A model generated the notes under the pieces. That model was given only the letters and a program-made list of their open reading frames with translations. It had not been told where the DNA came from and made no database searches. Both the position numbers and the translations under genes were made by a program. A stretch of 64,000 nucleotides of DNA from Armatimonadota bacterium (lineage in GTDB: Bacteria; Armatimonadota; Zipacnadia; Zipacnadales; UBA11051), in NCBI GenBank assembly GCA_013178155.1, contig JABLXH010000003.1, positions 1-64,000 on the forward strand, given 5' to 3'. Every line of letters starts with the position of its first letter. Position 1 is the first letter of the stretch. Positions 17,239-54,702 of this stretch are shown piece by piece.

Positions 17239-17293
17239 CTTAACATGCCCTTAATGGGGCCATAACAATGGGTTAAATGCTCACTGCTAACCT
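17239..17293 (+). promoter_or_regulatory. Pho-box promoter of pstS
   Basis: The clearest of the four: CTTAAC (17239), CTTAAT (17250), CATAAC (17261) and GTTAAA (17272), each 11 bp apart, then TAACCT (17288-17293) 16 bases after the last repeat start. There is no good -35, consistent with PhoB-dependent activation. Confidence 0.75.
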
Positions 17294-39431: not shown

Positions 39432-42077
39432 CTACTTCCGCAAGGGTACCAGACAGGTGACGCAGCCACCATCCCTGCTGCGGGCCTGGACCCGCAGGAG
39501 ATACTGGCCTTGCGGCACCCGTGTTCCTGTTGTTGAGCGTCCGTTCCACCACAAGGTGCTGATGCCGCCGTTCAGGGCCTGAGCGGGCACCGCCGCCACC
39601 ACGCGGCCCGCCAGGTTCAGCACTGTGGCCCCAACCTCTGCCGCCGTGCTCAAGCTGACGGTGATGGCCAAGGTCCCGCTGCGCGTGGGGACTGCCGCAG
39701 CACCCAGGGCCAGAGCCGCTTCTCCCTCCGGCTGGATCTGGACGGCTGCACTGACAGTCCACGGTCCACTCACCGTTCCGTCGTTGGCCCGTGCCTGCAC
39801 CCGCCACCACTCCCCGACTGCGGTGGCGCTTGCTGCCAGGATTCGCCCCAGGGGCCCCGCTTGCCAGGTTACCCCGCCGTCGGTGCTCTTGTACCAGGCA
39901 TAGCGGTAGGTCAGCGAGTCGCCGTCCACATCGGTGGCCCCGCTGGCAGCGGCCTTCAGATCCTGATCGCCACGCGGCTGCGAGGGGCTGATCGTTACGG
40001 CAGCCGGCGCTGTGGGGGGAGTGTTGCCGATGATAACGATCGCGCCTTCTGTCCAGGGGCCCGCCACAGTGCCATCGTAGGCACGGCCACGCACCTTCCA
40101 GTGCTCCCCCTTGCTGGTGTTACTGCTGGGAAGTACGGTCCCCGCCCAATCCCAGCCACTCCAGGTGTTACCACCATCGGTGCTTCGCGCCCAGGTATAG
40201 CGGTAGGTCAGCGAATCATCCTCTTCGTCAGTGCTGCCGGAAGCGCTCGCCACCAGGTCGTTGGCGGTTCTGGGCTTCAGCGGCCGGATGCCTACCGTCA
40301 GAGGTGCCGTCGGCGGAGCGTTACCTACACTCACCGTCTCGCTCTCCAGCCAGTCACCTGAGGCCTCCCCGTCGGAAGCACGGGCTCGCGCCTTCCAGGA
40401 TTGCCCCCGGGCGACATTGCTTCCGGCCAGCTCCATGCCCTCGTAGTTCCACGCGCTCCAGGTCGCCCCGCCGTCGCTGCTGCTACACCACTGGTACTCA
40501 TAGGTCAGGCTGTCATTGTCCGCGTCCGTGCTGCCAGAAGCCGTAGCCGTCAAGGCCTGTCCGGTTACCGGGCTGCCGGGGGTGACGATGACTGTGCCGG
40601 GAGCCCCAGGCGCACTGTTGAGGATAGTGACGGCACTGCTCTCCTGCCAGGGGCCACTATCGGTGCCGTCTGAGGCGCGAGCGCGTGCCTTCCATTGCTC
40701 TTCCTTGGCGGTGGCACTGGCCGCCAGGGCCTCCCCATCGTTCCCCCACTCTGACCACGTACTACCACCATCGGTGCTCTTGGCCCACTGGTACTGGTAC
40801 GTGAGACCGTCGCCATCGGCATCGGTGCTGCCCGAGGCCGAGACGAGCAAGTCATCGGTGGTGATAGGGGCTCCAGGAGTAACAGTCACGGTGCTGGGCG
40901 CAGTGGGTGGGGTATTGGCGATGGTGACCACCGGGCTCTCCACCCAGTCACTGTAGCCCCCCTTGCCATCGGTTGCGCGAGCCTGCGCCTTCCAGCGCTC
41001 GTCCCGCGCCGTGTAGCCATCGTCGAGGGTGTTCCCTTCCCATCCCCACGCGCTCCAGGTGCTGCCGCCATCGGTGCTCCGCGCCCATTGGTACTCATAG
41101 GCTACCGTGTCACCGTCAGGGTCATTGCTGCCGGAGGCCGAGGCTGCCAGGTCAGTGCTTGTGTCCGGGTTCGTCGGGCTGATCACGACCGAGGTGGGCG
41201 CGGTCGGCGGGTTGTTTGGGGCGCTGCGGGGTGTGATGATCAGACAGGTGCCGCCGTAGACCTGGAAGTCATAGCCACTCTCGTCCTCTCCATCCCAGGC
41301 CCAAGACCGCACTCCCCACCCACTCCAGGTAGTCCAGCAGATGTAGTGCCGTTTGCCGTCCGTATTGTCATAGCCGATAGCCGTTACCGAGTGTCCCCCG
41401 GCCGACGAAGTCAGCCCCAGATGTACGGGGCGTCCCGCGTCAATCTCGGCGCAGAAGTCCTCATACGTCCAGCCGTAATCCGTGTAGTTGGTCTCGTAAG
41501 TTGCGGTGTAACTCTCGTTGGTGGTAGTAGTCGGGTCGTCCCAGGCGGCGAAGGCAACAAACCCGGGACCGATGTTGGAGCGTGACGTGCTACCGTTGCG
41601 CGTGAAGAAGAAGTCGGCGATACAGTCAGCGGTGTGGTTCTCATAGGAACCGTAGGTAAGACCTAGCAGCGCTCCGGCATCAATGTGAGCCTGGCTGGCC
41701 ACCATCCGCTTCGTGCCGCTGGTCCCGCTGCCATACCACGTGGCCGCGCTGCCCTCAAACAGGTCCTCGCAACCGGTCTGGGCGTCCCACCAGCCAATGA
41801 TCATGCCGCCGGCGGTAGGCGAACAGCCATACCACCAGATATACTCCGGGACTCCAGGGATCGTCTTGCTGAGCCCTTCGATGTTGAGGGCACGAATGGA
41901 CTGTCGAGGCGGCGGGTTTCTGGGGAACAACGGGCGATCCACGAGACCGCCCTGCTGCGCCCAGGCGGGGCCGGTAAGCAACAGAAGCATCGCCCCCACT
42001 AAGGCCCGGAGAAACGTGTCTGAGCGGTTCCTGGGGCCCGCAGGAGCAGGTGTTGCATGAGGACGAGAACCACGCAT
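39432..42077 (-). CDS. secreted C39-type cysteine peptidase-like protein with five repeats and a FlgD-like C-terminal domain
   Basis: An 881-residue exported protein. After the signal (LLLLTGPAWAQQ), residues 75-290 form a papain-fold Peptidase_C39_2-like domain with Cys85 in WWYGCSPTAGG and His229 in AGGHSVTAIGYDN. Five tandem repeats of about 98 residues follow, each reading PPTAP...ASASGSTDxDGDxLTY.YQW..STDGG.TWS and ending in a W(K)..ARA.DG strand. The last 95 residues are a FlgD-like domain (VLNLAGRVVAAVP, RVPQGQYLLRV) close to that of the 29075 protein. ATG 42077 follows GGAGG. A surface or matrix peptidase is inferred. Its promoter carries the CTTGA-type repeat. Confidence 0.8.
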   Translation of the reverse strand: MRGSRPHATPAPAGPRNRSDTFLRALVGAMLLLLTGPAWAQQGGLVDRPLFPRNPPPRQSIRALNIEGLSKTIPGVPEYIWWYGCSPTAGGMIIGWWDAQTGCEDLFEGSAATWYGSGTSGTKRMVASQAHIDAGALLGLTYGSYENHTADCIADFFFTRNGSTSRSNIGPGFVAFAAWDDPTTTTNESYTATYETNYTDYGWTYEDFCAEIDAGRPVHLGLTSSAGGHSVTAIGYDNTDGKRHYICWTTWSGWGVRSWAWDGEDESGYDFQVYGGTCLIITPRSAPNNPPTAPTSVVISPTNPDTSTDLAASASGSNDPDGDTVAYEYQWARSTDGGSTWSAWGWEGNTLDDGYTARDERWKAQARATDGKGGYSDWVESPVVTIANTPPTAPSTVTVTPGAPITTDDLLVSASGSTDADGDGLTYQYQWAKSTDGGSTWSEWGNDGEALAASATAKEEQWKARARASDGTDSGPWQESSAVTILNSAPGAPGTVIVTPGSPVTGQALTATASGSTDADNDSLTYEYQWCSSSDGGATWSAWNYEGMELAGSNVARGQSWKARARASDGEASGDWLESETVSVGNAPPTAPLTVGIRPLKPRTANDLVASASGSTDEEDDSLTYRYTWARSTDGGNTWSGWDWAGTVLPSSNTSKGEHWKVRGRAYDGTVAGPWTEGAIVIIGNTPPTAPAAVTISPSQPRGDQDLKAAASGATDVDGDSLTYRYAWYKSTDGGVTWQAGPLGRILAASATAVGEWWRVQARANDGTVSGPWTVSAAVQIQPEGEAALALGAAAVPTRSGTLAITVSLSTAAEVGATVLNLAGRVVAAVPAQALNGGISTLWWNGRSTTGTRVPQGQYLLRVQARSRDGGCVTCLVPLRK

Positions 42078-42115
42078 CGCGCGCCCTCCGATGACAGTCC
42101 TCACTTGCGGCTATC

Positions 42116-42192: not shown

Positions 42193-42223
42193 CGGATACC
42201 CCCCACCTCAAGTTGGTCGCAAG
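42193..42223 (-). promoter_or_regulatory. CTTGA-repeat promoter of the C39-peptidase-like gene
   Basis: On the minus strand CTTGC (42223-42219) and CTTGA (42212-42208) are 11 bp apart. TTGCGA as -35, an 18-bp spacer and TATCCG (42198-42193) as -10 follow. The arrangement matches the promoters at 43451 and 50802, with one base longer spacing. Confidence 0.5.
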
Positions 42224-42271
42224 AACGGCAACCTCTCCGCGTCGTGATCCCCGACAGGCATCAGAGAAAAA

Positions 42272-42304
42272 CAATCAAGCCCCTGGCCGGCAGGGGCTTG
42301 ATTG
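42272..42304 (-). terminator. strong intrinsic terminator of PEP-CTERM-like gene C
   Basis: A perfect 14-bp stem, 42272-42285 with 42291-42304, loop of five, followed on the minus strand by TTTTTCTCT. Confidence 0.85.
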
Positions 42305-42354
42305 ATCATCTCAACGGAGCTGTTGCAACAGCTTCGGCAATGCGCCTATGTGTT

Positions 42355-43200
42355 CTATGAGCGGCGGCGGCGGCGCAGCAGCGGGACCGCAGCCAAGCTC
42401 AGACCCAGGAGCATCACGGTGGATAGCTCAGGGGTGGTGGGCCTGCCTTCCTTCTTCCAGCGGAAGATCAGGATCATGTCGTTGTAGTCGGGCTCCGCAT
42501 AGGGCTCGGAGCCACTCCGCCACTTCAGGGACTCCTTGTCGCTCCAAGCCAGGTCATACTCGTAGTTGACCGTGGACATGGGCTTGTCTTCCCAGGCAAG
42601 GATCCAGGCGTTAGCTTCCTTGGGGTGGTTGAACACCCGAAGGTGCTTGGTGTTAGAGTCGGCGGTGTTCCGATCGGCCTCGGAGTACCAGGTCTGCGGA
42701 TTCACCAGCGAACCGTTATCCAGATAGAACCCGATCGCCTGCCCTTCGTAAGCGGTGAAGTCGACGCTGAAGATGGGCGAGTCAACCGCCGGGTCCCATG
42801 CCGCACTCCCGTCGAAGATCTCGTGCTTGGTGATGGGATCATCCGGCAGGACCGGGTTGTACCACCCGAACTTGTTGCGCGTCTCCCATGCCGAGTACTC
42901 GATCTCCAGGATGCTCTTGCCGGAGATGATGCTCAGTGGCGCAGGAGAGGGAACAACCCAGGTCTGGTTATCTGCGATAACCTGATAGTCATCCCACAGG
43001 TCCTCGGCGCTCAGGCCAGCATAGTCGGAGCCCCACGGTGGATGGACCGGGGTCACATCATTCTTGAGTTTCGCCTGGTCCGTCCACCATTCCCAGATGC
43101 TGTACTCACGCGCAGCAGCGGGTGGAACCAGGAGTCCCAGCAGCACCACGCCAAGCGCGAGCACTGAGAGATAGTGTACGGTCCGGAACTTGCTCAACAT
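42355..43200 (-). CDS. PEP-CTERM-like exported surface protein C with DUF4114-like domain
   Basis: A 281-residue protein: signal peptide ending VPPAAA, a beta-rich body, the segment EPDYNDMILIFRWK that resembles DUF4114 calcium-binding-like domains, then TPELSTVMLLGLSL, a hydrophobic helix and RRRRRS. It is therefore an exosortase substrate with PEL in place of PEP. ATG 43200 is preceded by AAAGGGGG; an ATG at 43230 adds ten residues. It lies just downstream of the exosortase operon but has its own promoter (43451-43501) and a 250-base leader. Calcium-stabilised surface protein is inferred. Confidence 0.85.
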   Translation of the reverse strand: MLSKFRTVHYLSVLALGVVLLGLLVPPAAAREYSIWEWWTDQAKLKNDVTPVHPPWGSDYAGLSAEDLWDDYQVIADNQTWVVPSPAPLSIISGKSILEIEYSAWETRNKFGWYNPVLPDDPITKHEIFDGSAAWDPAVDSPIFSVDFTAYEGQAIGFYLDNGSLVNPQTWYSEADRNTADSNTKHLRVFNHPKEANAWILAWEDKPMSTVNYEYDLAWSDKESLKWRSGSEPYAEPDYNDMILIFRWKKEGRPTTPELSTVMLLGLSLAAVPLLRRRRRS

Positions 43201-43450
43201 CCAAACCCCCTTTACTGAAACGTGCGTCACTTACGGCACGTCCGTGTGACTGGTTCGCTGGTGAAGCGAAATGGCACCCAAGTCTCCCCTCCTTTTCCGA
43301 CCAGGGCGCCCGTTGTGGTGACAGCTACAGTGCGGGCCCGCGGACAACCCACTATGCCCTGGTGTCCGAGCGTAGAAACAAACGCCCCACGGTTCTCCAA
43401 CCACGCAAGAAAGAGCTTCTACCCCAACTCGTAACACATGATCGCACAAC
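43201..43450 (-). promoter_or_regulatory. long leader of PEP-CTERM-like gene C
   Basis: About 250 bases between the promoter and the start codon with no reading frame. A short hairpin TTCGCT/AGCGAA (near 43254-43270) lies about 55 bases before the start. The element shared by leaders A and B is absent. Confidence 0.35.
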
Positions 43451-43501
43451 TGTATAGCCCTTGTCAAGCCCAAATCAAGCAAAACTCAAGGCTTGAGCAA
43501 G
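43451..43501 (-). promoter_or_regulatory. CTTGA-repeat promoter of PEP-CTERM-like gene C (four units)
   Basis: On the minus strand CTTGC (43501-43497), CTTGA (43490-43486), CTTGA (43479-43475) and CTTGA (43468-43464) are each exactly 11 bp apart. TTGATT within the third unit and TATACA (43456-43451), with a 16-bp spacer, form the -35/-10 pair. The last repeat lies 7 bases before the -10. Confidence 0.7.
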
Positions 43502-43512
43502 TCATGAGACCA

Positions 43513-44436
43513 TTATGGCGGCTCCAGACCAGTGCCAGAGTGGGCCTCCGGGAGGGATTCTGAACCGTCCCGGACCGCACCCGGGCCCGCTGGCTTCCAG
43601 CTCTGCAGTGCGTTCCCCAGGCCCCAGACCAGGGCAAAGGCTGCCAGGTAGACCACCACATCCGACCCCCCGTGGACAAACTGCCCCAGCGCCAGCTCGG
43701 GCCCGACGAGCTCCCCCACGACTACCACGGAAAGCAGGCGGATCACGTTGGCGGCGATGACAATCACCGGCGTGAGCGCATAGATGACCAGCTTCTGCCA
43801 CGTGGCCAGACGCATCAGTTCCGCCACCACCCCCCCGGCCAGGAACAGCGCGACGAGGGAGTTCATGCCGCTGCAGGCCTCGGCCACCACGAACTGGAAG
43901 CTGGGCAAGGCGACGTTGACACCCTCGCGCAGCACGGGAATCCCAAAGAGCCGAGTGGCAGCCACGGTGAGAATCGTGGAGATCACCTGCATCGGCATGG
44001 CGACCATCCCGAGGATGTGGCGGGGAAAGGGGATGGCAAACAGGAACAGGGCCAGGCTGAAGCCCAGGACCCGCAGATAGGCCGATCCGAGACCCGTGGC
44101 CACCAACCCCATGAGCACCACCGGGAAAGACAACCCGACGATGAACCGCGCCCCCGTCACATACCCCAGGAAGCAAACCACCAGACCGGCCCCGAGGAGC
44201 CATAGCCCCCGGGCCGAAGGGCTCGGCGTGAGCACGGCCAGCTCACGGCGGTGAAACCAGATCAGCCCCGCGACGGCAAGAGGCACCAGCGGGCAATGGC
44301 TGTAGGCCGCCTCGTTGGCCCAGCGATACCAAAAGGCCGGCCAGACGTGCCTATAGAGGGCAACCAGAAGCACCGCACAGAGCACAGCCCAGAGGATCAG
44401 GACAGTCCGGTTAGTCTGATTGGACGGTGACTCCAC
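43513..44436 (-). CDS. exosortase (membrane transpeptidase for PEP-CTERM-type proteins)
   Basis: A 307-residue integral membrane protein with about eight helices. The catalytic residues are present: Cys188 in VVAEACSGMNS, Arg233 in AANVIRLLSVV and His255 in QFVHGGSD. Exosortases cut C-terminal PEP-type signals and probably attach the protein to a surface glycolipid or polymer. It starts with GTG 44436 behind AAGGAG, 15 bp after the GT-C gene stop. EpsI lies two genes upstream. The only sorting signals found in the window are of TPELST type, so these are its likely substrates. The exosortase subclass is not assigned. Confidence 0.92.
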   Translation of the reverse strand: MESPSNQTNRTVLILWAVLCAVLLVALYRHVWPAFWYRWANEAAYSHCPLVPLAVAGLIWFHRRELAVLTPSPSARGLWLLGAGLVVCFLGYVTGARFIVGLSFPVVLMGLVATGLGSAYLRVLGFSLALFLFAIPFPRHILGMVAMPMQVISTILTVAATRLFGIPVLREGVNVALPSFQFVVAEACSGMNSLVALFLAGGVVAELMRLATWQKLVIYALTPVIVIAANVIRLLSVVVVGELVGPELALGQFVHGGSDVVVYLAAFALVWGLGNALQSWKPAGPGAVRDGSESLPEAHSGTGLEPP

Positions 44437-44451
44437 GCCAACTCCTTGTGA

Positions 44452-46293
44452 TTACTCACCTGCGGACGGTGTAGCGGCTGGACGCGGTCCGCGCCGACGC
44501 GCCTCGGCCTGGCGTGCCAACAGGTTCTCGAAGCGCTTGCGAGTATCGGGCTTCAGCTCCTTGGCGCCCTTCGGCGTCATGGTGAGCAGTTCGTTGTCCG
44601 GGAAGAACAGCGCAGGGCCGAGCTTCCTGGTCTCTTCTGGCTCGGTCAAGGCCTTGCGCCAGGGATCATCCGCTCCACGTCCCCCGCTCAGCAGGTCCCG
44701 CGTCAGATAGACGAGATGGGGCGCCCGACTCAGGCGCGTGATGGAATCCATGTCCTGCGGCTGCTTCGGCAGCAGAATGGCGCGATGTGGGCCGTACCAG
44801 GCCACCACCCACGGATTGTCCGTAAGAAAGACCGTCTTCTCCTCCAGGTCCAGGTACTTGGAGATCTCCTGCACCCGGACCACCGGCGCTCCCGGGCGCA
44901 CCGGCCGCCCGAGCACAGCGCTTGCCAGGTAGGGCACGGCCACGACCAACACTACGCCACTGGCTGCCAGCAGCCGCAGGCCGCGGCTTACTTTCAGGCC
45001 GCGCAGCCAGTGGACCACGGCCGCAACAGAGATGCCGGTGGCGAGGGGCCGCACGATACTGAACGGGGCGTCCGAAGCCGTAGTGAAGGCAGTTGTGAGT
45101 ATCTGGATGCCCAGGGTCCACAGGAGGATGGAGTACAGCAGTCGGCGCTCCGGAGTCTTGGGCAGCCAGATGATGGCCCCCACGAGGAAGGCAAACAGAT
45201 AGATGTTGGTGATGTCGGGCACAGCACGATAGAGCTCGACAAGCCCGCGAGCCACCTTGCGGACGGTGTCACCGGGATGGGCCAGCAGGTAAGCAACCGG
45301 ACTGCCGGGAGCATCGGAGAAGGTGCCCAGCACGCTGATCCCCGGATAGTCGGCGGTGTTCATGACCAGTTGGGCCATCTGCAGTCGCGACCAGGGGTGT
45401 CCGGTGGCCACCAGGTTCCTTCCCCACCACACCACGCCCAACAATAGCGAGATCCCGACAACCATCAGGAAGGCTGGTTTGCGGCGTGCTCCAAGGCCAG
45501 CGGTGGCCACAGCAGCCAGCGGCAACCACAGTAGCGGAGAGAAGCGACCAGCCAGGTAAGCGAGCCCACCCATGACGCCGACAGCGCCCAGCCACAGCCA
45601 AGGCATCCGCGTGGCGTCGGCTGGGCCACTGGCGCCCTGGGGCTCTCCAGTCGAAGGCGACGACGTGGTGGTCTTCAGGCAGTGGAGGGCCGCCAGGACG
45701 GCCAGCGAGAATAGCAGCGCCGTGAGCAGGATGCCGTCGGCGGTAAGGGCCATGCCAATGATGTGCACGCCACCGAAGTAGGCCAGGACCGACCAGAGCG
45801 CCACCCCGCGATCAAAGGCCAGCGCCATGATGCGATACAGCACCCAGGCCAGCGCAAACATGCACAGGGCGTTGAACATCACCACGGCATCATCGCTGAT
45901 ACCACGAGTCTGGAAGAAGAGCCCCAGCGCCACGGGATACAGCGGTGCCCGTCCGATGTCATAGCCCTTGCTATCCGGATGGCTGCCCGCCAGGGCATAG
46001 GGGAAGGTGATACGTGTGAAGAGTGTCCGGTGCATCCGGAAGTTGCGGGCGATCTGAGCCGCCTCGATGGCTTCCGTGGACACCAGGTTCGTGAAACGAG
46101 CGGTCTTGAAGCGGAAGAAGAGGCCGACACCGATGCTCAGGAGCACGACACCAAGCAGGATGGCCTTGCCGATCTGGTTGGCGGTCTGGCGTGGGTCGCG
46201 GTCATAGGGCTGCCCGGAAACGGACCGTGTTCGGCTGGGGACGGCAACGCGCCTGACCGGTGCTGGTTGTTGACCCCTCTCATCACTACTCAT
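44452..46293 (-). CDS. GT-C family membrane glycosyltransferase (ArnT/PMT-like)
   Basis: A 613-residue protein. A charged cytoplasmic N-terminus (about 40 residues) is followed by a first helix and the lumenal loop typical of GT-C enzymes (VSTEAIEAAQIARNF, with SHPDSKGYDIGRAPLYP). About ten further helices (for example AYFGGVHIIGMALTADG, GWLAYL-like stretches) and a soluble C-terminal part of about 170 residues follow. Such enzymes use polyprenol-phosphate sugars on the outer face of the inner membrane. It sits between epsI and the exosortase genes, so it may add sugar to the polymer or anchor used in sorting. Confidence 0.75.
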   Translation of the reverse strand: MSSDERGQQPAPVRRVAVPSRTRSVSGQPYDRDPRQTANQIGKAILLGVVLLSIGVGLFFRFKTARFTNLVSTEAIEAAQIARNFRMHRTLFTRITFPYALAGSHPDSKGYDIGRAPLYPVALGLFFQTRGISDDAVVMFNALCMFALAWVLYRIMALAFDRGVALWSVLAYFGGVHIIGMALTADGILLTALLFSLAVLAALHCLKTTTSSPSTGEPQGASGPADATRMPWLWLGAVGVMGGLAYLAGRFSPLLWLPLAAVATAGLGARRKPAFLMVVGISLLLGVVWWGRNLVATGHPWSRLQMAQLVMNTADYPGISVLGTFSDAPGSPVAYLLAHPGDTVRKVARGLVELYRAVPDITNIYLFAFLVGAIIWLPKTPERRLLYSILLWTLGIQILTTAFTTASDAPFSIVRPLATGISVAAVVHWLRGLKVSRGLRLLAASGVVLVVAVPYLASAVLGRPVRPGAPVVRVQEISKYLDLEEKTVFLTDNPWVVAWYGPHRAILLPKQPQDMDSITRLSRAPHLVYLTRDLLSGGRGADDPWRKALTEPEETRKLGPALFFPDNELLTMTPKGAKELKPDTRKRFENLLARQAEARRRGPRPAATPSAGE

Positions 46294-46320
46294 GGGCTGT
46301 TGATTCCTCTCCCCCGCAGA

Positions 46321-47022
46321 CTAGGGCGAAGCTGACTTCTGCTTGGCATACTTCTCCAGGGCGGCGTAGAAGGCGGGGAGCAAGCGTTGGGCGAGGTCAG
46401 CCACCGCCTGCTCTGCCGCCGGGTCATCTTGCTCCGTATGCGCATAGAGAAACACTTGGCCCCAGACAGGATCGCCATGCAACCGTGCCAGCCAACCGGC
46501 CGCAACCGCCTGCTTGAGATCAATCGCCTGCTGGCCCGGGCTGACAAACCAGTTCAGAGTGTACCGGCGGGCGGGACCATACTTGATGACCTGTCTGCTG
46601 AGCTGAGCGGTGAAGGGCACCCCCTCCAGGGGAGTCTCCCAGATGGACTTATGCTCAGGCGTCCAGCCCGAGGCGAGATAGGCAGTGGCGAAATCACGCA
46701 TCGAGCCGATACGGCTGCTAGTGACCTTCAGGATGACCTTGACCTCCCGCCTCGAAGCCTGGGCGTAGGTGCGATACTGCATCAGGGTATCGCCTTCGGC
46801 GGAAAGAGGGTTTTTCCCTGGAGTCTCATCGTTACTCTGGTCCCAGGTCCAGGGGCCGAGGCGGGCGGGGATGTCTTGCAGCGGGAAGTCGCCGACATAG
46901 ACATTGCGCGCGGCGCGCCCGCTGGCAAGCACAGCGATCAGGAGCAGCGCCAGGCTGCTGATATACACGATATGGGGTCGGCTCACTCTGAGGTCATTGC
47001 TCCCCGGGCTAGCGCGCGCCAT
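46321..47022 (-). CDS. EpsI-family exosortase-associated protein (DUF3485)
   Basis: A 233-residue protein with one N-terminal membrane helix (YISSLALLLIAVLASG) and a DUF3485 domain: FPLQDIPARLGPWTW, then REVKVILKV, FATAYLASGWT and YTLNWFVS. EpsI either stands alone or is fused to exosortases in PEP-CTERM/EPS loci; its biochemical role is unknown. It overlaps the end of the sugar transferase gene by 14 bases and precedes the GT-C gene by 27, so the operon is tightly coupled. Confidence 0.88.
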   Translation of the reverse strand: MARASPGSNDLRVSRPHIVYISSLALLLIAVLASGRAARNVYVGDFPLQDIPARLGPWTWDQSNDETPGKNPLSAEGDTLMQYRTYAQASRREVKVILKVTSSRIGSMRDFATAYLASGWTPEHKSIWETPLEGVPFTAQLSRQVIKYGPARRYTLNWFVSPGQQAIDLKQAVAAGWLARLHGDPVWGQVFLYAHTEQDDPAAEQAVADLAQRLLPAFYAALEKYAKQKSASP

Positions 47023-47701
47023 CGCGCCGGATGACGGCGCGAAGTGTGGCGAGCAGAATGGAGCAGTCCAGCGCCAGACACCTTCGCTCCAGATACTCCA
47101 TATCCTTCCTGAGCATGAAGTCGCAGTCGGTGTCCTTACGGCCGCTGACCTGCCAGAGACCAGTCAGGCCAGGACGGGCAACCAGGCGGCTCAGACCGCG
47201 GGGATCGGGGATGTGGCAGGAGATGGGGCGGGGGCCCACCAGACTCATCTCGCCACGCAAGACGTTGATAAACTGCGGGGTCTCATCCAGGCTCAGGCTG
47301 CGCAGAATGGCTCCGACGCGAGTGACCCGGGGGTCACGATCAATGCGGATCAGGGAGTTGTCGCTTTGCTTGTTGAGGGCCAGGACCTCATTCAGGCGTG
47401 CCTCGGCGTCCTGGTACATGGTGCGAAACTTGAGGATTCGGAAGGGCACACCAAACTGGCCGGGGCGGTACTGACGAAACAGGATCGGCCCCCGGGAGTC
47501 CAGCTTGATGGCCACGGCGATAATGACCCACAGCGGCAGACACAGCACAATGCCAACCAGCGCTCCGACTACGTCCAGACAGCGCTTGGCGGCCAAGTAG
47601 AACGCCAGGTTTCGTCCCCGCGGGAGGGTCAAACCACCGACAGTCGCCCCGCCGATAAGAGCGGGGTCATGCAGGTCATCCGTTATGGTTACGTGTGTCA
47701 T
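47009..47701 (-). CDS. undecaprenyl-phosphate sugar-1-phosphate transferase (bacterial sugar transferase family)
   Basis: A 230-residue initiating transferase. One membrane segment (CLDVVGALVGIVLCLPLWVI) is followed by the catalytic domain: GPILFRQYRPG, ILKFRTM, SLDETPQFINVLRGEMSLVG, PRP and RPGLTGLWQVSGR. It transfers a sugar phosphate to undecaprenyl phosphate and so starts the repeat unit. It is short, lacking the four-helix N-terminus of WcaJ-type enzymes. ATG 47701 behind GGGGAGG is taken; it overlaps the upstream GT4 gene by 26 bases. Confidence 0.9.
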   Translation of the reverse strand: MTHVTITDDLHDPALIGGATVGGLTLPRGRNLAFYLAAKRCLDVVGALVGIVLCLPLWVIIAVAIKLDSRGPILFRQYRPGQFGVPFRILKFRTMYQDAEARLNEVLALNKQSDNSLIRIDRDPRVTRVGAILRSLSLDETPQFINVLRGEMSLVGPRPISCHIPDPRGLSRLVARPGLTGLWQVSGRKDTDCDFMLRKDMEYLERRCLALDCSILLATLRAVIRRDGAR

Positions 47702-48845
47702 CGCTCTTGCCTCCCCCTGCTGTAGACCTTCGGCTTGTGGCGACCTGGTCGCCTGTAGCGAGGGTCTGGTAGAGCGTTTCGAACCGATCCGCTGTGAGAT
47801 CCCAGTTGCGCTCGGCTCGGATATAAGCACGAACTCGGTCAAACTCCGCCTGTATGATCTCTGGCTGCCGCAGGAGGGCGGCCAGTTCAGTCCGTAAGGC
47901 GTTTACATCTCGTGACTTGAAGGTGCCCCCACACGGTCCCAGCGCCTCGCGATTGGCCGGGATATCGCTGGCCAGGACATACCGACCATAGCTCATGGCC
48001 TCCAGGACAGCGATGGGCAGCCCTTCCATTTCCGACGGCTGCACATACACGTATGCGTTGGAATACAGCTCCGCCAGCAGGCGGCCGGTGACATACCCGG
48101 CGAAGATGATGCGGTCGCTGGCCTGGGCTCGCAGCCTCTGGACGTAGGAGTCCTCATAGGGACAGTCGCCGGCAATGACCAACTTGAGGTCCGTGTCCAG
48201 GTCGGCAAAGGCCTCCACCAAGTAGTGGACCCCCTTCTCCTTGACCAGACGAGCGGCGCAAAAGATATAGCGCCCGGCCTCCACTCCCAGTGTCGTCAGC
48301 TCCTGGGCGGCGACGGGCTCGGCCAGATGGACGCCGGTCGGTATGAACACCGGGGTGACGCCCACCAGTTGCTGGTACTGGTCCCGCACGACCTCTGAAA
48401 CGGCGGTAAGGCCATCGGCGCTACGGGCCCCGACGCGCGCGGCGAGATACATCGTGCGGGAAGCCCAGCGGCCCCATTTTCCGCCCTGCCAGTCGAGACC
48501 GTGAACCGTCACGACCACCCTGGCCTGTCGCTTGCGGCGCAAAAGGGGCGCCAAGGATCCCGGGGCGGATCCGTGTATGTGCAGAATGTCAAAGTCCTCT
48601 TTGAGCGCGTGCAGCGCTGCGGTGAAGGAGTGGGTCGCGGCGTCCAGATGCTTCCCTCGCAGGCCTCGAGTGACGACCCTGCGCATACCCCGGTACGGCC
48701 CACTGCCATCCTGAAGGAAGTGCGGGCGGCAATAGACCGTGACCTCATGCCCCCGGTCTGCCAGCCGCGCGCCAAGCTCCTCCACATAGTGCGCTATGCC
48801 CCCGATCGCCGGCACGGCTTTCGCACCCAGCATAGCGATCTTCAT
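47676..48845 (-). CDS. glycosyltransferase family 4 protein (exopolysaccharide operon)
   Basis: A 389-residue GT-B enzyme: KAVPAIGGIAHYVEELGARL, then IHGSAPGSLAPLL, the donor-domain strand FCAARLVKEKGVHYLVEAF and the ExxxxxxxE segment PSEMEGLPIAVLEAMSYGR. It follows the GHMP kinase gene by 53 bp and overlaps the sugar transferase gene, within the exosortase operon. It adds a sugar to the polyprenol-linked repeat unit; donor unknown. Confidence 0.85.
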   Translation of the reverse strand: MKIAMLGAKAVPAIGGIAHYVEELGARLADRGHEVTVYCRPHFLQDGSGPYRGMRRVVTRGLRGKHLDAATHSFTAALHALKEDFDILHIHGSAPGSLAPLLRRKRQARVVVTVHGLDWQGGKWGRWASRTMYLAARVGARSADGLTAVSEVVRDQYQQLVGVTPVFIPTGVHLAEPVAAQELTTLGVEAGRYIFCAARLVKEKGVHYLVEAFADLDTDLKLVIAGDCPYEDSYVQRLRAQASDRIIFAGYVTGRLLAELYSNAYVYVQPSEMEGLPIAVLEAMSYGRYVLASDIPANREALGPCGGTFKSRDVNALRTELAALLRQPEIIQAEFDRVRAYIRAERNWDLTADRFETLYQTLATGDQVATSRRSTAGGGKSDDTRNHNG

Positions 48846-48898
48846 CTGTCAAGCTGCCTTCGACGACGTTCTCCACCCCAGGCCAAGGGGAGGGTGGA

Positions 48899-49993
48899 CT
48901 ATAGACAACTGGCCACCAGCGCGAAGCGATGTGTACGATGATATTCTGCTTCCCCCCCTGCTCGCTGGTTGGCCGCTGTCTGCACCGGATGGATCTTCTG
49001 GAAGTGATAGCCTTTGGCGGTGAAGGCCTCTTGCGCTTGCCGGAACTGCTCGTCACTGCTGTACAGGCCGACAATCGCCCCACCTGAACCGGAGAATTTG
49101 GCGGGCAGGCCGAAGCTGCGGGCCGTCTCAACCATGTCAATGTTGCGCGCGCCGATCCACTCGTCGCCATAGATACGTCGGCGCGTGTTGAAGTTGGCGT
49201 CCATGAGCTGGCCCAGCGTCTCGTAGTCACGGGCGAGCAGAGCCGTCCGTGCCTCATCCGTGTAACGGGCGAACTCTTTCATGCCCGCGAGGACTTCGGG
49301 ATCCCCGGCATCGAAGCGATAACGGACATTGCTGTGGATCTTACCGGAGTCCGAAGGGCAGTCACTGTAGGCCAGGTACAGAGGCGGCAGCAGGCTGATG
49401 TCCATGGGCTCGTAGTATCCGTGGCCGTACTTGGCGATGATCTCGGGAGCGAAGTCCATGTAGACCAGACCGCCGTAGCACTGAACCACACGATCCTGCA
49501 ATCCGGCCTGAATATGGAGTTCCTTTGTCTCGACCTCGAGCACCAGGTTCGGCTGGATGGGCTTGGGCAAAACCTTCTCGTCTACTTCATAGAACTCCAT
49601 CAGTGCCTGGAGGGCGGCCGTGATAATGGCGCTGGAGCCGGCCAACCCCACCTGTCTCGGGATGTTGATGTCATACTCCATAGTGAAGTTGCGGTCCGGG
49701 AGCTGCAGACCGGCTTCCTGGCAGTACTGGTGGAACCGCTTGCAGGTGGCGAAAAGCAGCCGCAGCCCACCATAGTAGCCATCCAGCGAGGCAGTGTAGG
49801 TGAGGTCGGCGAGGTTGCGAAAACAGAAGGGATCAAACTTTGGGTGAGGGATGATCTCTAGTTGCGGGCTCTCCCACAGCGTTACCGAGGCCGCGAAATC
49901 ACCAATAAGACACGCAATGGTCTTCCCCCCGAAGCCATCTGATGGGTTTCCCATCAGTCCTACCCTGGCCCCTACAGTGCGTCGGATTACCAT
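48899..49993 (-). CDS. GHMP-family sugar kinase, glucuronokinase-like
   Basis: A 364-residue kinase. It begins RRTVGARVGLMGNPSDGFGG. Motif 2 is IPRQVGLAGSSAIITAALQAL and motif 3 is PAKFSGSGGAIVGLY. The N-terminal GNPSDGFGG and the long insert resemble plant glucuronokinases more than galactokinases, but the substrate is a guess. It is the first gene of the exosortase/EPS operon, about 600-800 bases downstream of two CTTGA-repeat promoters. It would supply a sugar 1-phosphate for nucleotide-sugar formation. Confidence 0.8.
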   Translation of the reverse strand: MVIRRTVGARVGLMGNPSDGFGGKTIACLIGDFAASVTLWESPQLEIIPHPKFDPFCFRNLADLTYTASLDGYYGGLRLLFATCKRFHQYCQEAGLQLPDRNFTMEYDINIPRQVGLAGSSAIITAALQALMEFYEVDEKVLPKPIQPNLVLEVETKELHIQAGLQDRVVQCYGGLVYMDFAPEIIAKYGHGYYEPMDISLLPPLYLAYSDCPSDSGKIHSNVRYRFDAGDPEVLAGMKEFARYTDEARTALLARDYETLGQLMDANFNTRRRIYGDEWIGARNIDMVETARSFGLPAKFSGSGGAIVGLYSSDEQFRQAQEAFTAKGYHFQKIHPVQTAANQRAGGEAEYHRTHRFALVASCL

Positions 49994-50600
49994 TGTGCTC
50001 AGACCCCCCTCACAGCCCCACGCCCTGGCCGTTTACGCGCCGGCCAGATCATCGCGAGTCTGTGAGTTGTAGCGACGAGAAACTGTGACAAAGGTAAGCG
50101 TCATCTTTCCCCCGAAGCCCCTTGACAGGTTCGCGCAAAGAGCGCTACTATCTGAAGTGACAGTGAGGGCCGACCCACGGTTCCCCAACTGCGTTGTGAC
50201 CAGGGAGCAGCCCCTCCCTGGTCACTTTGTTTATGCCGACCAGCGTTCCGCGCTGTAGTAATCCCCAACTGCCTGACCCATCTCAGCCCGATGAGTCCTC
50301 GCGGAACGCTTCATCCCCAGCCGAAGCGCCTGATGACCGCATGTGCGTAAGCCCCAGGTCAGCGACTCCGGCGTTACGTACAACATAAGTGACCTTCCCC
50401 GAGGCGACGGAAGCAGGAGGCGTGGTCTGAGCGAGTAGTTCGCTTGCTGCTATCTTAGCTGTCCTATAGGGAGGTTAGTCCCTACCGGACGGCAGACCGC
50501 CTGCCGTCGCTTACGTGATGGCAGAGCAGGGTAGCGAACTGCGTTTCTGCTGTGACGTGGTATTGCCCCCGAGGTTGCTAGGAGCCCCCTGTCCCCGAGA
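49994..50600 (-). promoter_or_regulatory. long non-coding structured leader of the exosortase/EPS operon
   Basis: About 600 bases without a credible gene. It holds several stems: 50242-50252 with 50300-50310 (11 bp), TAGGGA/TCCCTA at 50467-50484, GACGGCAG/CTGCCGTC at 50488-50508, and the stem 50195-50224. Transcripts from 50604 and 50802 would run through it on the minus strand. A long structured leader before an EPS operon recalls processive antitermination elements such as EAR, but no known motif was recognised. Confidence 0.4.
50157..50231 (+). ncRNA. candidate small antisense RNA in the EPS operon leader
   Basis: On the plus strand TTGACA (50121-50126), an 18-bp spacer and TACTAT (50145-50150) would start a transcript near 50157. 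A perfect 12-bp stem (50195-50206 with 50213-50224) followed by TTTGTTT (50225-50231) would end it. The product of about 75 nt contains no reading frame and is antisense to the EPS leader. Confidence 0.55.
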
Positions 50601-50603
50601 AAA

Positions 50604-50633
50604 AGGCTAACAACATCTCAAGTATTTGTCAAG
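50604..50633 (-). promoter_or_regulatory. EPS operon promoter P2 with two CTTGA repeats
   Basis: On the minus strand CTTGA at 50633-50629 and 50622-50618, 11 bp apart. TTGACA (50632-50627), a 17-bp spacer and TAGCCT (50609-50604); the last repeat lies 8 bases before the -10. Confidence 0.6.
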
Positions 50634-50801
50634 CTTCGCGCGGGCGATGCGACCAGCGACTGGCTGCTACTCCCACGGCTCGGCCGAAAAGCACCGCAGA
50701 AAACAAAAGCCTGGCAAGCCGGCGCCAACTGAGTCGAGACCGTGTCTCTACGAGTTGGGCACCACTAACCAGGCCAGTAGTTGCGGTGTTTTGACGGTTT
50801 C

Positions 50802-50853
50802 AGGATACCCACGACTCAAGTGCAAGTCAAGAGAAACTAAAGTGAAAATCAAG
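50802..50853 (-). promoter_or_regulatory. EPS operon promoter P1 with four CTTGA-type repeats
   Basis: On the minus strand CTTGA (50853-50849), CTTTA (50842-50838), CTTGA (50831-50827) and CTTGA (50820-50816), each 11 bp apart. TTGACT (50830-50825), a 17-bp spacer and TATCCT (50807-50802). Repeat number and phasing match the promoter at 43451-43501. Confidence 0.65.
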
Positions 50854-50965: not shown

Positions 50966-51832
50966 CTAGCCTCCGGCTGTCTCCTGACGGAGGCGCTTGA
51001 TGGCTTCCTCTACAGCGGGGTTCTGGAAGCCGTAGCTGTCGCGCAGGATCGCTGCCACCTGGTCCAGCGACCAGCCCTCTCGCTTTACCCCCCGAGCATA
51101 GGCGAGGATGCTCGCTTGTTGCTCACGTTTGCTCTGGCCGCGCTGAACCTCTGCCCCATCCTTGTCGCTCTGACGTATCTTGATCACCGTATAGAGATAC
51201 GCGATGGGATTGCGAACTTCAGTCTCCTCTACGCGCCGCTCGACGATCTGAATGGCCTCCTTGATGACGTCAGTATCGTAGTTGCGCAGGAAGCTTGCGA
51301 TGCTTTTCACCTGGCCCTTGGGGACGGCAAAGATCTGGGCTATCTGTCCCGCCAGCCGAATGTGAGTTGACGAGGGCGAGTCGTCTTTGTCTATATCAAG
51401 ATGTGAGACAAGACTCTCGTCACTAGAAGAACTAGGGAACTGCCCGTCTGGCACTTCTGCAGTTGCCAACCTGGCACTTCTTGAAGTGCCAATTTGGCAC
51501 TTCTCGTCAGCATCAGGGGTTAAGCGGGGCAGAATGTAGCGATTCGGCATGCCACGGCCCGGCCGCTCAACGATAATCAGGCCATGCTCAGCCAGTTCCT
51601 TCAGGTAGCGAATGAGGCTCCTCTTCCCCATTCCGAAATCGCGTGCGACTTGTTCCTGGCCGGGGAACTTGCCGTCCTTCCAGGCGCACGCCAGCAGGGC
51701 AGCGTAGGCAAGCTTCGCGCCAGGCGAGAGCTCCTGAAGTCGAAGCACGATGTTAGGTACCTGCGTAAAGCCATAGCGCAGGGTACCGTCTTCGACAATG
51801 ATAATACCGCCCTCGTCGTTATACCGGGCCAC
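50966..51832 (-). CDS. HTH_36-type replication-initiator-like protein
   Basis: A 288-residue protein. After YGFTQVPNIVLRLQELSPGAKLAYAALLAC, a winged-helix region (GQEQVARDFGMGKRSLIRYLKELAEHGLI) matches helix-turn-helix proteins of plasmids, integrative elements and phages (HTH_36 type). A Ser/Asp-rich middle is followed by a DnaD/primosome-like helical part (AIQIVERRVEETEVRNPIAYLYTVI). It starts with GTG 51832 behind GAGGAGGAT. The stretch coding for residues about 110-128 contains the 23-bp DNA repeats listed next. The neighbouring MerR-like, ParA and small partner genes suggest a plasmid-type maintenance block; direct evidence for replication is lacking. Confidence 0.6.
   Translation of the reverse strand: MARYNDEGGIIIVEDGTLRYGFTQVPNIVLRLQELSPGAKLAYAALLACAWKDGKFPGQEQVARDFGMGKRSLIRYLKELAEHGLIIVERPGRGMPNRYILPRLTPDADEKCQIGTSRSARLATAEVPDGQFPSSSSDESLVSHLDIDKDDSPSSTHIRLAGQIAQIFAVPKGQVKSIASFLRNYDTDVIKEAIQIVERRVEETEVRNPIAYLYTVIKIRQSDKDGAEVQRGQSKREQQASILAYARGVKREGWSLDQVAAILRDSYGFQNPAVEEAIKRLRQETAGG
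51449..51504. repeat. three 23-bp-spaced iterons inside the replication-like gene
   Basis: TGGCACTTCT occurs at 51449, 51472 and 51495, exactly 23 bp apart. An inverted GAAGTGCCA lies at 51483-51491 and a degenerate copy near 51461, so the last pair forms a palindrome AAGTGCCA-N3-TGGCACTT. Because 23 is not a multiple of three, each copy is read in a different frame; selection is therefore on the DNA, not the peptide. Confidence 0.75.
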
Positions 51833-51904
51833 CGGCCCGATCCTCCTCTACCACTGGCGCGCAAGCCCTTGACAAGGACGGGTCTTATTGCCTACAATCC
51901 AACC

Positions 51905-52060
51905 CAGACAACAAGGTCGGAGGCAAAAAAGACCCCCTCTGGTCACTTGCTTGCGACCTCTCAGAAGCGGCGAAGCTACCAAGCACTTCCCGGGCTGCTA
52001 GCTATCGCCAACAGGATTGGCCCATCCGGTGCGGCAACACCTGATGGGCCTCAGTCTTTT
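51905..52060 (+). ncRNA. candidate non-coding RNA beside the replication-like gene
   Basis: On the plus strand TTGACA (51869-51874), an 18-bp spacer and TACAAT (51893-51898) form a promoter. A nested stem (GGCCCATC 52019-52026 with GATGGGCC 52043-52050, inner GGTG/CACC) followed by TCAGTCTTTTCT ends the unit. The transcript of about 155 nt has no start codon with a ribosome site. It runs divergently from the replication-like gene and toward the end of the MerR-like gene. Confidence 0.55.
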
Positions 52061-52061
52061 C

Positions 52062-52514
52062 TCAGGCCACGATCACCTGCTCCTTGGGGTAAGCAACCTG
52101 CTGTGCCAGCTCGCGCCAGTGAGCAACCGGCAGAATGACTTTCTGGCCTGGCTCCTCAAACAGCCTGGTTGCATCCGTGGGCGAGCCGTACACCGAGACC
52201 AGGTCGCCATCCACGACAATCAGGTAGATATCCTCCAGTGAGGCCCCATCGCGACGAAGCTGTGCCAGCAGCGAACCGATGTACTCCATGGAGTGCCCCG
52301 TGCGCCGGAGGGTAGCCGCGACGCAGGCCTCGAGCACATCACGCAGGCTCAGCAGCACCTGCTTGCGTTCACCACGCGGCGGCGCGACGCTGGCTTGCAC
52401 ATGCCCGCTTTTCAGCCAGCGCATCAGGGTCCGGTACGGCACACCGGTTAGCTCAGCCACCGTCTCAGGGGTCCACGTTTGCATGATAGAAAGTATCTTC
52501 TCCGTAAGTGCCAT
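52062..52514 (-). CDS. MerR/excisionase-like helix-turn-helix protein
   Basis: A 150-residue protein. Residues 12-45 (WTPETVAELTGVPYRTLMRWLKSGHVQ) form a MerR/Xis-type winged HTH, followed by a helical part with SLRDVLEACVAATLRR and a small C-terminal domain (LIVVDGDLVSVYG) of the DUF433-like type. ATG 52514 follows AAGAGGAG. It may control the replication-like gene or its own promoter; no partner is obvious. Its stop lies at the edge of the candidate RNA's terminator. Confidence 0.65.
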   Translation of the reverse strand: MALTEKILSIMQTWTPETVAELTGVPYRTLMRWLKSGHVQASVAPPRGERKQVLLSLRDVLEACVAATLRRTGHSMEYIGSLLAQLRRDGASLEDIYLIVVDGDLVSVYGSPTDATRLFEEPGQKVILPVAHWRELAQQVAYPKEQVIVA

Positions 52515-52530
52515 AGACTCCTCTTGCTGA

Positions 52531-53222
52531 CAGTATACAATCCAAACCCCAAGACAGGCTCAAGAGATTGTAGGACACGGCAAGACACAGCCCTCCGACC
52601 GACGCCCCTTGGGGCACCTTCCATCTTGAAGATCGCCGGCGTGTACCGGGCCCCTCTCCCCTATCGCGATTCAGCTCGCTCAGCTCCGGACCCCAACTCA
52701 GCTCAGCTCATCGGTTCGCCAAAAAGCCCCCGACCCCAAAGACGAAGCACACCCAAAGCAACCGATCCGGTGCCGAACCCATGGTCGGCGGTGCAGCCCG
52801 AGGAGAACTTTCTATGGGTTGTCTGTTGCCATAGCTGGCACCCCCGAAACTGGCCCTGCGCCCTCTGCCTGCAAATCACACCGATGCACCTGAGCGCCGA
52901 GAGTGCAAAGACTCGGGGCCACACTCCCCTACCCCACTGGCCCACCACCTATTCGTGCGACGAATGCTCCTCAGCACCGCCCGGATGCAACCCACGGGGA
53001 TGGCCCCCTGCCTGGATTGCAGTGTCGATGACAGACCGGGATCGGGAGGCTCTGCCCGCGCGAAGGGATCGGGACCGAAGACGCCTCCCTGCATGGGAGG
53101 TGCCCAGCCGCCGCGGGCCTGCCCATGGTGAACCCAGGGCAATGCGGAACGCTGTCGGGGCCGAGAAGAGGTCGGGCCCCTACGCATCGGCCAACCCGCG
53201 CCCCCCGGTCTGGTGTGAGTAG
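52531..53222. other. cytosine-rich stretch without a confident gene
   Basis: A 690-base region whose plus strand is unusually C-rich. One long plus-strand frame (52479-53222) contains scattered Cys residues (CCHSWHPRNWPCALC, CDECSSAPPGC) but overlaps the MerR-like start, has no ribosome site and shows no domain. The upstream end carries a likely -10 (TATACT on the minus strand, 52537-52532) for the MerR-like gene. I make no gene call here. Confidence 0.4.
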
Positions 53223-53543
53223 TGATCAAGCGGGCGCATAAAGCATGTTCGCAGCTAGTGACTTATGTAGTTACAAAGGAACGGAGTTGCAATGTGAAAC
53301 ATTTATATGTCTGCCTTAGTAAAGTAGTATATGAGTTATTAACTCATGGACCTTTGTGCTAATGCACTGTTGCACTTTTTCAGCTAACCGGGGCGTGGGC
53401 CAGGCGGCCGACAGCGGTCATTGCCGGGTGGGCAGTTCGACGCAGGATTGACAGGAAGCGAAGGAATTGATACGGTAGCTAAGAACTTCATTACTCGCGT
53501 AGTCAGTTACTCCATTAGTTTATGACAACGGTGTGTTCAATCC
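53223..53543. other. AT-rich region upstream of parA, possible partition site or origin
   Basis: A markedly AT-richer 320-base stretch in an otherwise GC-rich window. It holds palindromes ATGAGTT-ATT-AACTCAT (53331-53347) and AATGT-GAA-ACATT (53291-53303), a TGCAC repeat, and recurring AGTTAC words near 53270 and 53500. Such composition fits an operator/centromere for ParA or a replication origin, but no known parS or DnaA box was identified. Confidence 0.35.
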
Positions 53544-54335
53544 ATGGCCAGAGTCATCGCCATTGCGAACCAGAAGGGCGGCGTGGGGAAGACGACCACT
53601 GCCGTCAACTTGGGCGCGGCACTTAGCGAGGCGGGAAAGTCGGTCCTGCTGGTGGACATGGATCCGCAGGCGAGCCTGACGGTGCATGTGGGTCTTGACG
53701 ACGGGGACGAGCGGCGGTCGGTGGCCGATGTGCTGGAGGAGGGGGTGAGCGCCGAGACCGCTTTGGTGCGGAAGCAGTTGGGGCTGTTTGATGTGGTTCC
53801 CTCAAGCATTGACCTGGCGGGGCTGGAACTGAGTCTTAGCGGCGTGGTAGGGCGGGAGAGCGTGCTGCGGGGGGCACTGGGACGCTGGGTAGAGCGGTAC
53901 GACTACGTGCTGATTGACTGCCCACCATCCCTGGGGCTGCTGACGGTAAACTGCCTGGTGGCGGCGCGGGAAGTGTTCATCCCTTTGCAGACGGAGTGGT
54001 TCGCGCTGCGTGGGCTGGCGCAGTTGCTGCAGTCCATTGAGGTGGTCAGGAAGCGAGTGAACCGGCGTCTGCGGATCAGCGGGGTGATTGCGTGCATGTA
54101 CCAGGGGCGGCGGCGGCTGTGTGACGAGGTGCTGGAGGCGATCCGGGCACGTTTTCCGGAGCAGTTGTTCAGCACCGTGATCCGAGACAACATTCGGCTG
54201 GCAGAGGCGCCCAGCTATGGGCTGCCGGTGACGCTGTATGAGACAGGAGCGCGGGGCAGTGAGGACTACCGATCGTTGGCGCGGGAAGTGATAGCGCAGG
54301 AGGCCGCGACGGAGGTTCAGGATGGCAAAGCGTAA
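53544..54335 (+). CDS. ParA-family partition ATPase
   Basis: A 263-residue ATPase. The deviant Walker A is NQKGGVGKTTTAVNLGAAL, A' is VLLVDMDPQASLT and Walker B is VLIDCPPSLGLLTVN. It lacks the N-terminal HTH of large plasmid ParAs, so it belongs to the Soj-like short type. ATP-bound ParA coats the nucleoid and is moved by its partner. It overlaps the next gene by 14 bases, which points to a two-gene partition operon rather than a chromosomal soj-spo0J pair: the partner is not a full ParB. Confidence 0.85.
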   Translation: MARVIAIANQKGGVGKTTTAVNLGAALSEAGKSVLLVDMDPQASLTVHVGLDDGDERRSVADVLEEGVSAETALVRKQLGLFDVVPSSIDLAGLELSLSGVVGRESVLRGALGRWVERYDYVLIDCPPSLGLLTVNCLVAAREVFIPLQTEWFALRGLAQLLQSIEVVRKRVNRRLRISGVIACMYQGRRRLCDEVLEAIRARFPEQLFSTVIRDNIRLAEAPSYGLPVTLYETGARGSEDYRSLAREVIAQEAATEVQDGKA

Positions 54336-54702
54336 GGCGATGGGCCGTGACCCGCTGGGTTGGATTGGCGAAAGCGACGACGTGGCGGTGGCATCCGAGG
54401 AGCAGGCGCCGGTGGCGATTGTGGAGCCGAAGGTGGGGGAGAGAGGAATTGAGGAGGGGCCTAAGTTCCTGAGTTATGAAGTAATGACGGCGCGCCTTCG
54501 CAGTGACCAGGTGGACATGCTGAGCGCACTCGAACGCCAGATCATGCGCGGGCGGCGGCACAAGGGCGAGCGGATCACAAAGAACTCACTGCTGCGTGCA
54601 GCCGTCGACGTGTTGGCAACGCTGCAGTTCGACGTTCGAGGGATCGGGAGTGAGGAGGAGTTGCGCGAACGTGTTTTGGCCGCCCGGAGGGCGGAGCGTT
54701 GA
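54322..54702 (+). CDS. small ParA partner, probable DNA-binding protein
   Basis: A 126-residue protein. A basic start (MAKRKAMGRDPLGWIGES) leads to an acidic, flexible middle and a C-terminal part (SYEVMTARLRSDQVDMLSALERQIM, GERITKNSLLRAAVDVLATL) that looks like a ribbon-helix-helix domain. The conserved basic N-terminal peptide is of the kind that stimulates ParA ATPases. It overlaps parA by 14 bases. It could bind a centromere in the AT-rich region upstream, or position a cargo other than DNA. No family was recognised with certainty. Confidence 0.6.
   Translation: MAKRKAMGRDPLGWIGESDDVAVASEEQAPVAIVEPKVGERGIEEGPKFLSYEVMTARLRSDQVDMLSALERQIMRGRRHKGERITKNSLLRAAVDVLATLQFDVRGIGSEEELRERVLAARRAER

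Follow-up and report, generated by a model that had tools for sequence, protein, structure and literature searches.

The first 64,000 bases of contig C135 from the draft genome of an Armatimonadota bacterium (the window; JABLXH010000003.1 in assembly GCA_013178155.1) carry arrays of the word CTTGA, repeated every 11 bp, in the promoters of an exosortase operon and of surface protein genes. We propose that these arrays serve an OmpR/PhoB-family response regulator as operators and that the cognate regulator is the one encoded in Tad pilus operons, a reading that rests on sequence comparison and to which we assign a probability of roughly 0.6. C135 comprises 135,635 bases, that is 2.5% of the 5.53 Mb genome (G000). 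The closest exosortases were found in Candidatus Zipacnadia, candidate division WS1 and Armatimonadetes metagenome-assembled genomes, a group to which the window genome thus belongs. The Zipacnadia have been described previously (PMC10290634), and the relatives compared here are Zipacnadia of the Armatimonadota, with 41 genomes in the order sample and 41 in the outgroup sample.

A preliminary description of the window had listed five CTTGA sites, all of which are present. Together with a possible further box they read as follows (R1 is a profile of the box introduced below):
50802–50853, minus strand: array A, four units (CTTGA 50853–50849, CTTTA 50842–50838, CTTGA 50831–50827, CTTGA 50820–50816), then N8 and the -10 element TATCCT (50807–50802); distal promoter of the exosortase operon; R1 match.
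50604–50633, minus strand: box pair CTTGACAAATACTTGA, N8, -10 element TAGCCT (50609–50604); proximal promoter of the exosortase operon; R1 match with E=0.044.
43451–43501, minus strand: array B, four units (CTTGC, then three times CTTGA), N7, -10 element TATACA (43456–43451); just past the exosortase gene, promoter of the PELST-CTERM gene 42355–43200; best R1 match in the window genome (E=0.040).
42193–42223, minus strand: weaker pair CTTGC-N6-CTTGA, N9, TATCCG; precedes the gene of a large surface protein (39432–42104).
7348–7377, plus strand: box pair CTTGAGCTATCCTTGA, N8, TACTAT (7372–7377); promoter of two PELST-CTERM genes.
52532–52564, minus strand: possible further box CTTGA-N6-CTTGG, N11, TATACT; before the MerR-type gene 52062–52514; uncertain, with deviating spacing.

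The arrays and their geometry can be read directly from the DNA. The usual arrangement is CTTGA-N6-CTTGA-N8-TANNNT (N7 to N9 are seen) with two to four units in 11-bp register; the TTGA of the -35 element comes from the penultimate unit, at a spacer of about 17 bp, and up to two more units lie upstream. Two of the sites, 50604–50633 and 50802–50853, serve the exosortase operon. At every site the direction of the box fits the downstream gene, as had been noted before. The earlier statement that the last unit lies 7–9 bases before the -10 element holds for the sites at 43464 (N7), 50816 and 50618 (both N8) and 42208 (N9), but at 7348 the last unit is 8 bp from TACTAT and only 3 bp from the overlapping TATAAT (7367–7372). 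On inspection the box promoters show sigma-70-type -10/-35 spacing; no dedicated scan for -24/-12 (RpoN-type) elements was made. A second spacing class, in which a CTTGA-type unit stands 11 bp instead of 8 bp before a good -10 element (CATAAT, TATAGT or TATACT), was seen at C50:15376, at the flp promoter on C203 (L311, about 4785–4815), at C2:138230 and at 52532–52564 in the window.

Exact CTTGA-N6-CTTGA pairs occur five times in the window, at 7348 (plus strand) and at 43464, 43475, 50618 and 50816 (minus strand). From the 139 CTTGA words on both strands we calculated a chance expectation of about 0.15 pairs, close to the earlier estimate of about 0.1. All five pairs that had been ascribed to the promoters were found, but exact pairs occupy only four of the five promoters, since those at 43464 and 43475 share one array and the 42208 pair contains one mismatch. 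When up to one mismatch was allowed, we counted 15 pairs (versus 3.0 ± 1.7 in dinucleotide shuffles of the window), and among all pentamers that are repeated at 11 bp on the whole contig and followed by TANNNT after 6–9 bp, CTTGA was found six times and every other listed word once.

The concentration on C135 is evident from the genome-wide counts, for which the reversed pattern served as control. Ten of the 16 exact pairs lie on this contig, with a probability below 1e-9 for 2.5% of the genome (binomial p ~6e-13). The reversed pattern occurs five times, so the six exact pairs outside C135 do not, taken together, exceed chance; those on C78, C154, C157, C168 and C199 have no clear N8 promoter, and the one at C50:15376 precedes a Flp pilin gene. 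All six pairs that are followed by a -10 element at 6–9 bp are located on C135 (none in the reversed control), as are 12 of the 19 three-unit arrays with up to two mismatches (versus one in the control). That is, the genome-wide scan, on which the preliminary description had staked the idea, clearly shows the motif to be commoner in front of surface genes. A chance origin, by accidental duplication of TTGA-rich -35 elements or by the copying of whole promoters, is hardly credible: although the penultimate CTTGA is itself the -35 hexamer and array B has the segment CTTGAGTTTTGCTTGA in common with an array at 76842, such an origin is already contradicted by the genome-wide controls, by the word-agnostic count and by conservation before Tad genes with different spacers. 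Separate from these promoters, imperfect three-unit arrays at C2:138230 and C167:3205 precede genes for stand-alone receivers, and imperfect arrays at C13:12106 and C18:9944 (L074, L075) precede paralogous AAA-type ATPase genes.

For the relatives, we built the profile R1 from 20 training sites, all from relatives and none from the window genome, and searched the 41 order genomes with it. At E<=0.1 it gave 45 matches in the order, including 19 training sites (versus 6 in the 41 outgroup genomes); since the training sites were selected by pattern, these counts depend on them, while the link to Flp genes and the carry-over of R1 to the window genome are the least affected results. Twelve matches, at eleven loci, lie on the same strand as a Flp pilin gene and at most 400 bp upstream of it; about 0.02 were expected, and only two of the 12 are training sites. 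Further matches precede TadE-/TadG-like and pseudopilin-like genes. In the window genome R1 gave eight matches, six of them on C135, including the best four. Boxes with a -10 element amount to 29 in the order genomes, where the reversed control gave 12; most of them are in the window genome and in families f6 and f2, and in the outgroups their number is near the control level. The spacing to the -10 element is strongly biased in the order, with N8 in 19, N9 in 7, N7 in 3 and N6 in none of the 29 cases (p ~5e-6 versus uniform), and nearly even in the outgroups (13/9/7/7). The boxes before the Tad genes of relatives differ in their spacer sequences. Conservation of the box before Tad genes is shown at the level of sequence. 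Exact three-unit arrays are nearly absent among 100 relatives, with a sole order-level match (G039) that has no clear target, and no arrays were found near the exosortase loci of relatives except in G016, where they precede a Flp pilin gene. Given the Flp/Tad positions in relatives and the pair before a Flp pilin gene at C50:15376, the box is best regarded as an ancient Tad/Flp element of the order that would later have spread to promoters of exosortase and PEP-CTERM genes in the lineage of the window genome.

The box also precedes a HAMP-type histidine kinase gene in two relatives (L151:1187–2959 and L157:2775–4547; G016 and G020), in G016 followed by a stand-alone receiver. We rejected this kinase-receiver operon as the cognate system because its receiver has no DNA-binding domain. 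In the same two genomes R1 boxes precede another ATPase-like gene (G016:C11, L233; G020:C275, L232).

A candidate regulator is encoded by the Tad operons themselves. In seven genomes (G016, G013, G010, G029, G035, G011 and G036) a box-headed operon consists, in this order, of flp, cpaA, cpaB, cpaC, cpaE, cpaF, tadB, tadC and, at its end, a histidine kinase gene followed by a response regulator gene, both recognised by their domains. This response regulator is OmpR-type, which supports the regulator class suggested in the preliminary description, and its recognition helix reads (T/P)HLVE(V/T)H(I/V).NLR, as THLVEVHIANLR or PHLVETHISNLR. In the window genome the Tad genes are split between two contigs, with flp to cpaC on C203, and tadC and the regulator on C202. 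The orthologue is located as follows:
C202:19835–20533, minus strand: OmpR-type response regulator gene, directly after tadC, at the contig end.
Its product contains Response_reg (PF00072, 6.5e-32) and Trans_reg_C (PF00486, 1.4e-25) domains, and among proteins of solved structure MtrA, RegX3 and RpaA are closest in sequence. In a tree of 41 OmpR-type regulators, the Tad group, the C202 regulator and the regulators beside f5 exosortases cluster together (support 80/88). The linkage of the box to this group is a direct observation: among the sampled genomes, five of nine Tad-group regulators lie within 20 kb of a box, versus one of 35 other OmpR-type regulators (Fisher p 6e-4).

This linkage also bears on the possibility that a different winged-helix protein reads the arrays, either one of the remaining nine OmpR-type proteins in the window genome or an unrecognised one specific to the exosortase locus. 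We consider this unlikely, though it deserves weight. Ten OmpR-type genes are present in the window genome, relatives have OmpR-type regulators adjoining exosortases, and the regulator at C157:74879 has one close relative per sampled genome and a weak box 2.6 kb away, but that box has no clear -10 element at N8 and the proximity to boxes is a feature of the Tad group. Four f5 genomes (L103, L104, L105 and L107) carry a pair of OmpR-type regulators beside exo1-type exosortases, the winged helix of one being strongly altered, and no CTTGA boxes; among the words repeated at 11 bp near f5 exosortases, none is common to different genomes.

Local genes were discarded as candidates. The OmpR-type regulator encoded on C135 itself (12543–13232) groups as PhoB-like, has the helix RTVDVHIRWLR, unlike that of the Tad group, and lies in a pho-box region. 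A pho box of three to four units is present at 17239–17280 in the phosphate-transport region (CTTAACATGCCCTTAAT... / CTTAACATGCCCTTAATGGGGCCATAACAATGGGTTAAA) and contrasts clearly with the CTTGA arrays; its word is CTTAAC, in line with the earlier statement that the arrays differ in sequence from Pho boxes. For the HTH_36 gene (50966–51832) and the MerR gene (52062–52514) only the proximity to array A is in favour.

The genes preceded by boxes in the window were assigned from gene calls and Pfam:
43513–49993, minus strand: operon 1, the exosortase operon, composed of the next six genes.
48899–49993, minus strand: GHMP kinase (PF00288).
47676–48845, minus strand: glycosyltransferase (PF00534).
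47009–47701, minus strand: sugar transferase (PF02397).
46321–46986, minus strand: EpsI-type DUF3485 protein (PF11984).
44452–46293, minus strand: PMT_2-type protein (PF13231, below cut-off).
43513–44436, minus strand: exosortase EpsH (PF09721).
42355–43200, minus strand: PELST-CTERM surface protein with the C-terminus PTTPELSTVMLLGLSLAAVPLLRRRRRS.
39432–42104, minus strand: large surface protein with C39-like peptidase, Ig-like repeats and FlgD_ig; start uncertain (41999 or 42104).
7599–8321, plus strand: PELST-CTERM-like surface protein (RTPELSTWLLLASSLVATLALRLW...), behind the 7348 promoter.
8554–9114, plus strand: PELST-CTERM surface protein, second gene behind the 7348 promoter.

Outside the window, C135 carries a four-unit array at 76842–76879 before a PEP-CTERM gene (77028–77756) and pairs at 77940, before another PEP-CTERM gene (78179–79192), and at 86394 (minus strand), before a second exosortase operon (85917–79894) whose promoter core is TTGACA-N17-TATACT and which encodes polysaccharide synthesis, PMT_2, EpsH, DUF3485 and PEP-CTERM proteins. 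A paralogue of the large surface protein gene (126209–130330) also has a pair with one mismatch upstream (130552–130567). The suggested coordination of exosortase, polysaccharide and client proteins is hence supported by the position of the C135 pairs before exosortase operons and PEP/PELST-CTERM genes. The second exosortase system (79894–86409; L017/L018) is divergent from the first, with 29% identity between the EpsH proteins.

Other features were seen around operon 1. Opposite its leader, on the plus strand, a promoter-like site (TTGACA-N18-TACTAT; 50122–50235) is followed by a strong hairpin and a T-rich run (GTGACCAGGGAG...CTCCCTGGTCAC TTTGTTT), possibly a small RNA; the site gave no Rfam match, and neither did a search for riboswitches in the long leaders. 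Between two surface-polysaccharide blocks, positions 50966–54702 encode an HTH_36 protein, a MerR-type protein and a ParA-like ATPase, resembling a plasmid-type or mobile module.

Several observations weigh against the Tad response regulator as cognate. The tree support for its group is moderate (80/88). In the window genome no kinase adjoins the C202 regulator (there is none between tadC and the regulator gene), none of the ten OmpR-type genes has a CTTGA array in its flanks, and on C135 a single OmpR-type gene was found, that of the PhoB-like regulator. The promoter of the Tad pilin gene on C203 has CTTGAG words 33 bp apart and N11 to TATAGT, and the canonical pair is absent. In relatives, part of the boxes before Tad operons are weak R1 matches (E 0.1–3), and f5-family exosortase loci have no CTTGA box though a regulator of the same group adjoins them. 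Finally, the enrichment before CTERM genes that had been anticipated was found on C135 but does not extend to other contigs, where the PEP-CTERM loci examined in the window genome have no box; the regulon would therefore be that of the C135 locus and not of all PEP-CTERM genes. It is in our view an even bet that the Tad two-component system was rewired in one Armatimonadota lineage, its operator being multiplied into arrays that control two complete exosortase/polysaccharide systems and their clients.

PhoB-family activators bind head to tail over the -35 element and recruit the polymerase. We infer that the arrays are bound in a similar way, that transcription is thereby activated and not repressed, and which protein is the cognate in the window genome: monomers of the regulator, most likely the Tad-operon response regulator (on C202 in the window genome), would line up head to tail over the -35 element of sigma-70-type promoters, each taking up one helical turn, and with the last unit ending about 8 bp before the -10 element they would recruit RNA polymerase as in class II activation by PhoB and CtrA. 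The same class of regulator might instead be a repressor that covers the -35 element and the spacer and keeps RNA polymerase off until it is released by a signal. The sites do overlap these elements, and some promoters have near-consensus cores (TTGACA-N17-TATACT at 86394); we nevertheless regard repression as quite improbable, because activation by PhoB, CtrA or SARP-type proteins typically goes with an N8 preference and with two to four units in helical phase, and several box promoters have poor -10 elements. In the window genome the Tad regulon appears to be extended to both exosortase/polysaccharide operons and the PEP/PELST-CTERM clients, and pilus and sorted surface matrix would then be produced together.

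CtrA is an OmpR-type response regulator. It controls Caulobacter pilA through TTAA-N7-TTAA at the -35 element (PMC11264516), and the arrays described here resemble its box in having direct repeats one helical turn apart over -35, a Tad pilin gene as target and several sites per promoter. They differ in the word (TTGA-N7-TTGA) and in having up to four contiguous units, and here the candidate regulator sits in the Tad operon and the targets include exosortase and PEP-CTERM genes. In Pectobacterium, an OmpR-type regulator and a kinase (ECA0785-ECA0786) adjoin the flp/tad cluster and control it positively; the parts of that report considered here describe neither an operator nor an exosortase link, and the phylum is a different one (PMC3767616). 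PprA-PprB of Pseudomonas aeruginosa, encoded within the flp-rcp-tad locus, also drives CupE fimbriae and the BapA adhesin (PMC3510237), and is thus likewise a Tad-locus two-component system that drives other surface structures; its other targets differ and include no exosortase, and the comparison is one of locus and targets. Exosortase clients are under two-component control in the PrsK-PrsR/sigma-54 system as well, but there through RpoN promoters and a Fis-type regulator (PMC1569441, PMC9850573), whereas the box promoters described here look like sigma-70 promoters and carry their repeats over -35. Pho boxes share the 11-bp direct repeats in the promoter region, but have the word CTTAAC/CATAAC instead of CTTGA and another target.

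SARP operators show the same architecture, with 11-bp direct repeats on one helix face, usually over -35, although with other words (PMC5930380). A SARP-type activator, or a member of another family with such operators, might accordingly read the arrays, and proteins of about 875 amino acids with a divergent Trans_reg_C domain do occur in the window genome (C79) and in relatives. We hold this to be improbable: none of these long proteins is linked to a box and no SARP was found linked to one (the BTAD domain was not searched for), whereas the Tad response regulator is encoded inside a box-headed operon.

Regulation of exosortase/PEP-CTERM systems is known in few bacteria, chiefly through PrsK-PrsR/sigma-54. 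If the Tad response regulator is the cognate, the rewired Tad system would be a non-sigma-54 master switch that joins adhesive pili and a sorted surface matrix, and an operon-encoded Tad regulator would have recruited a different surface-anchoring system by the spread of its box. With the operator defined, a cognate predicted and the target promoters listed, the question can be tested directly, and this in a phylum whose gene regulation is little known. Since the same box stands before adhesive-pilus genes in relatives, the whole surface coat is probably switched on by a single two-component system linked to the pilus.

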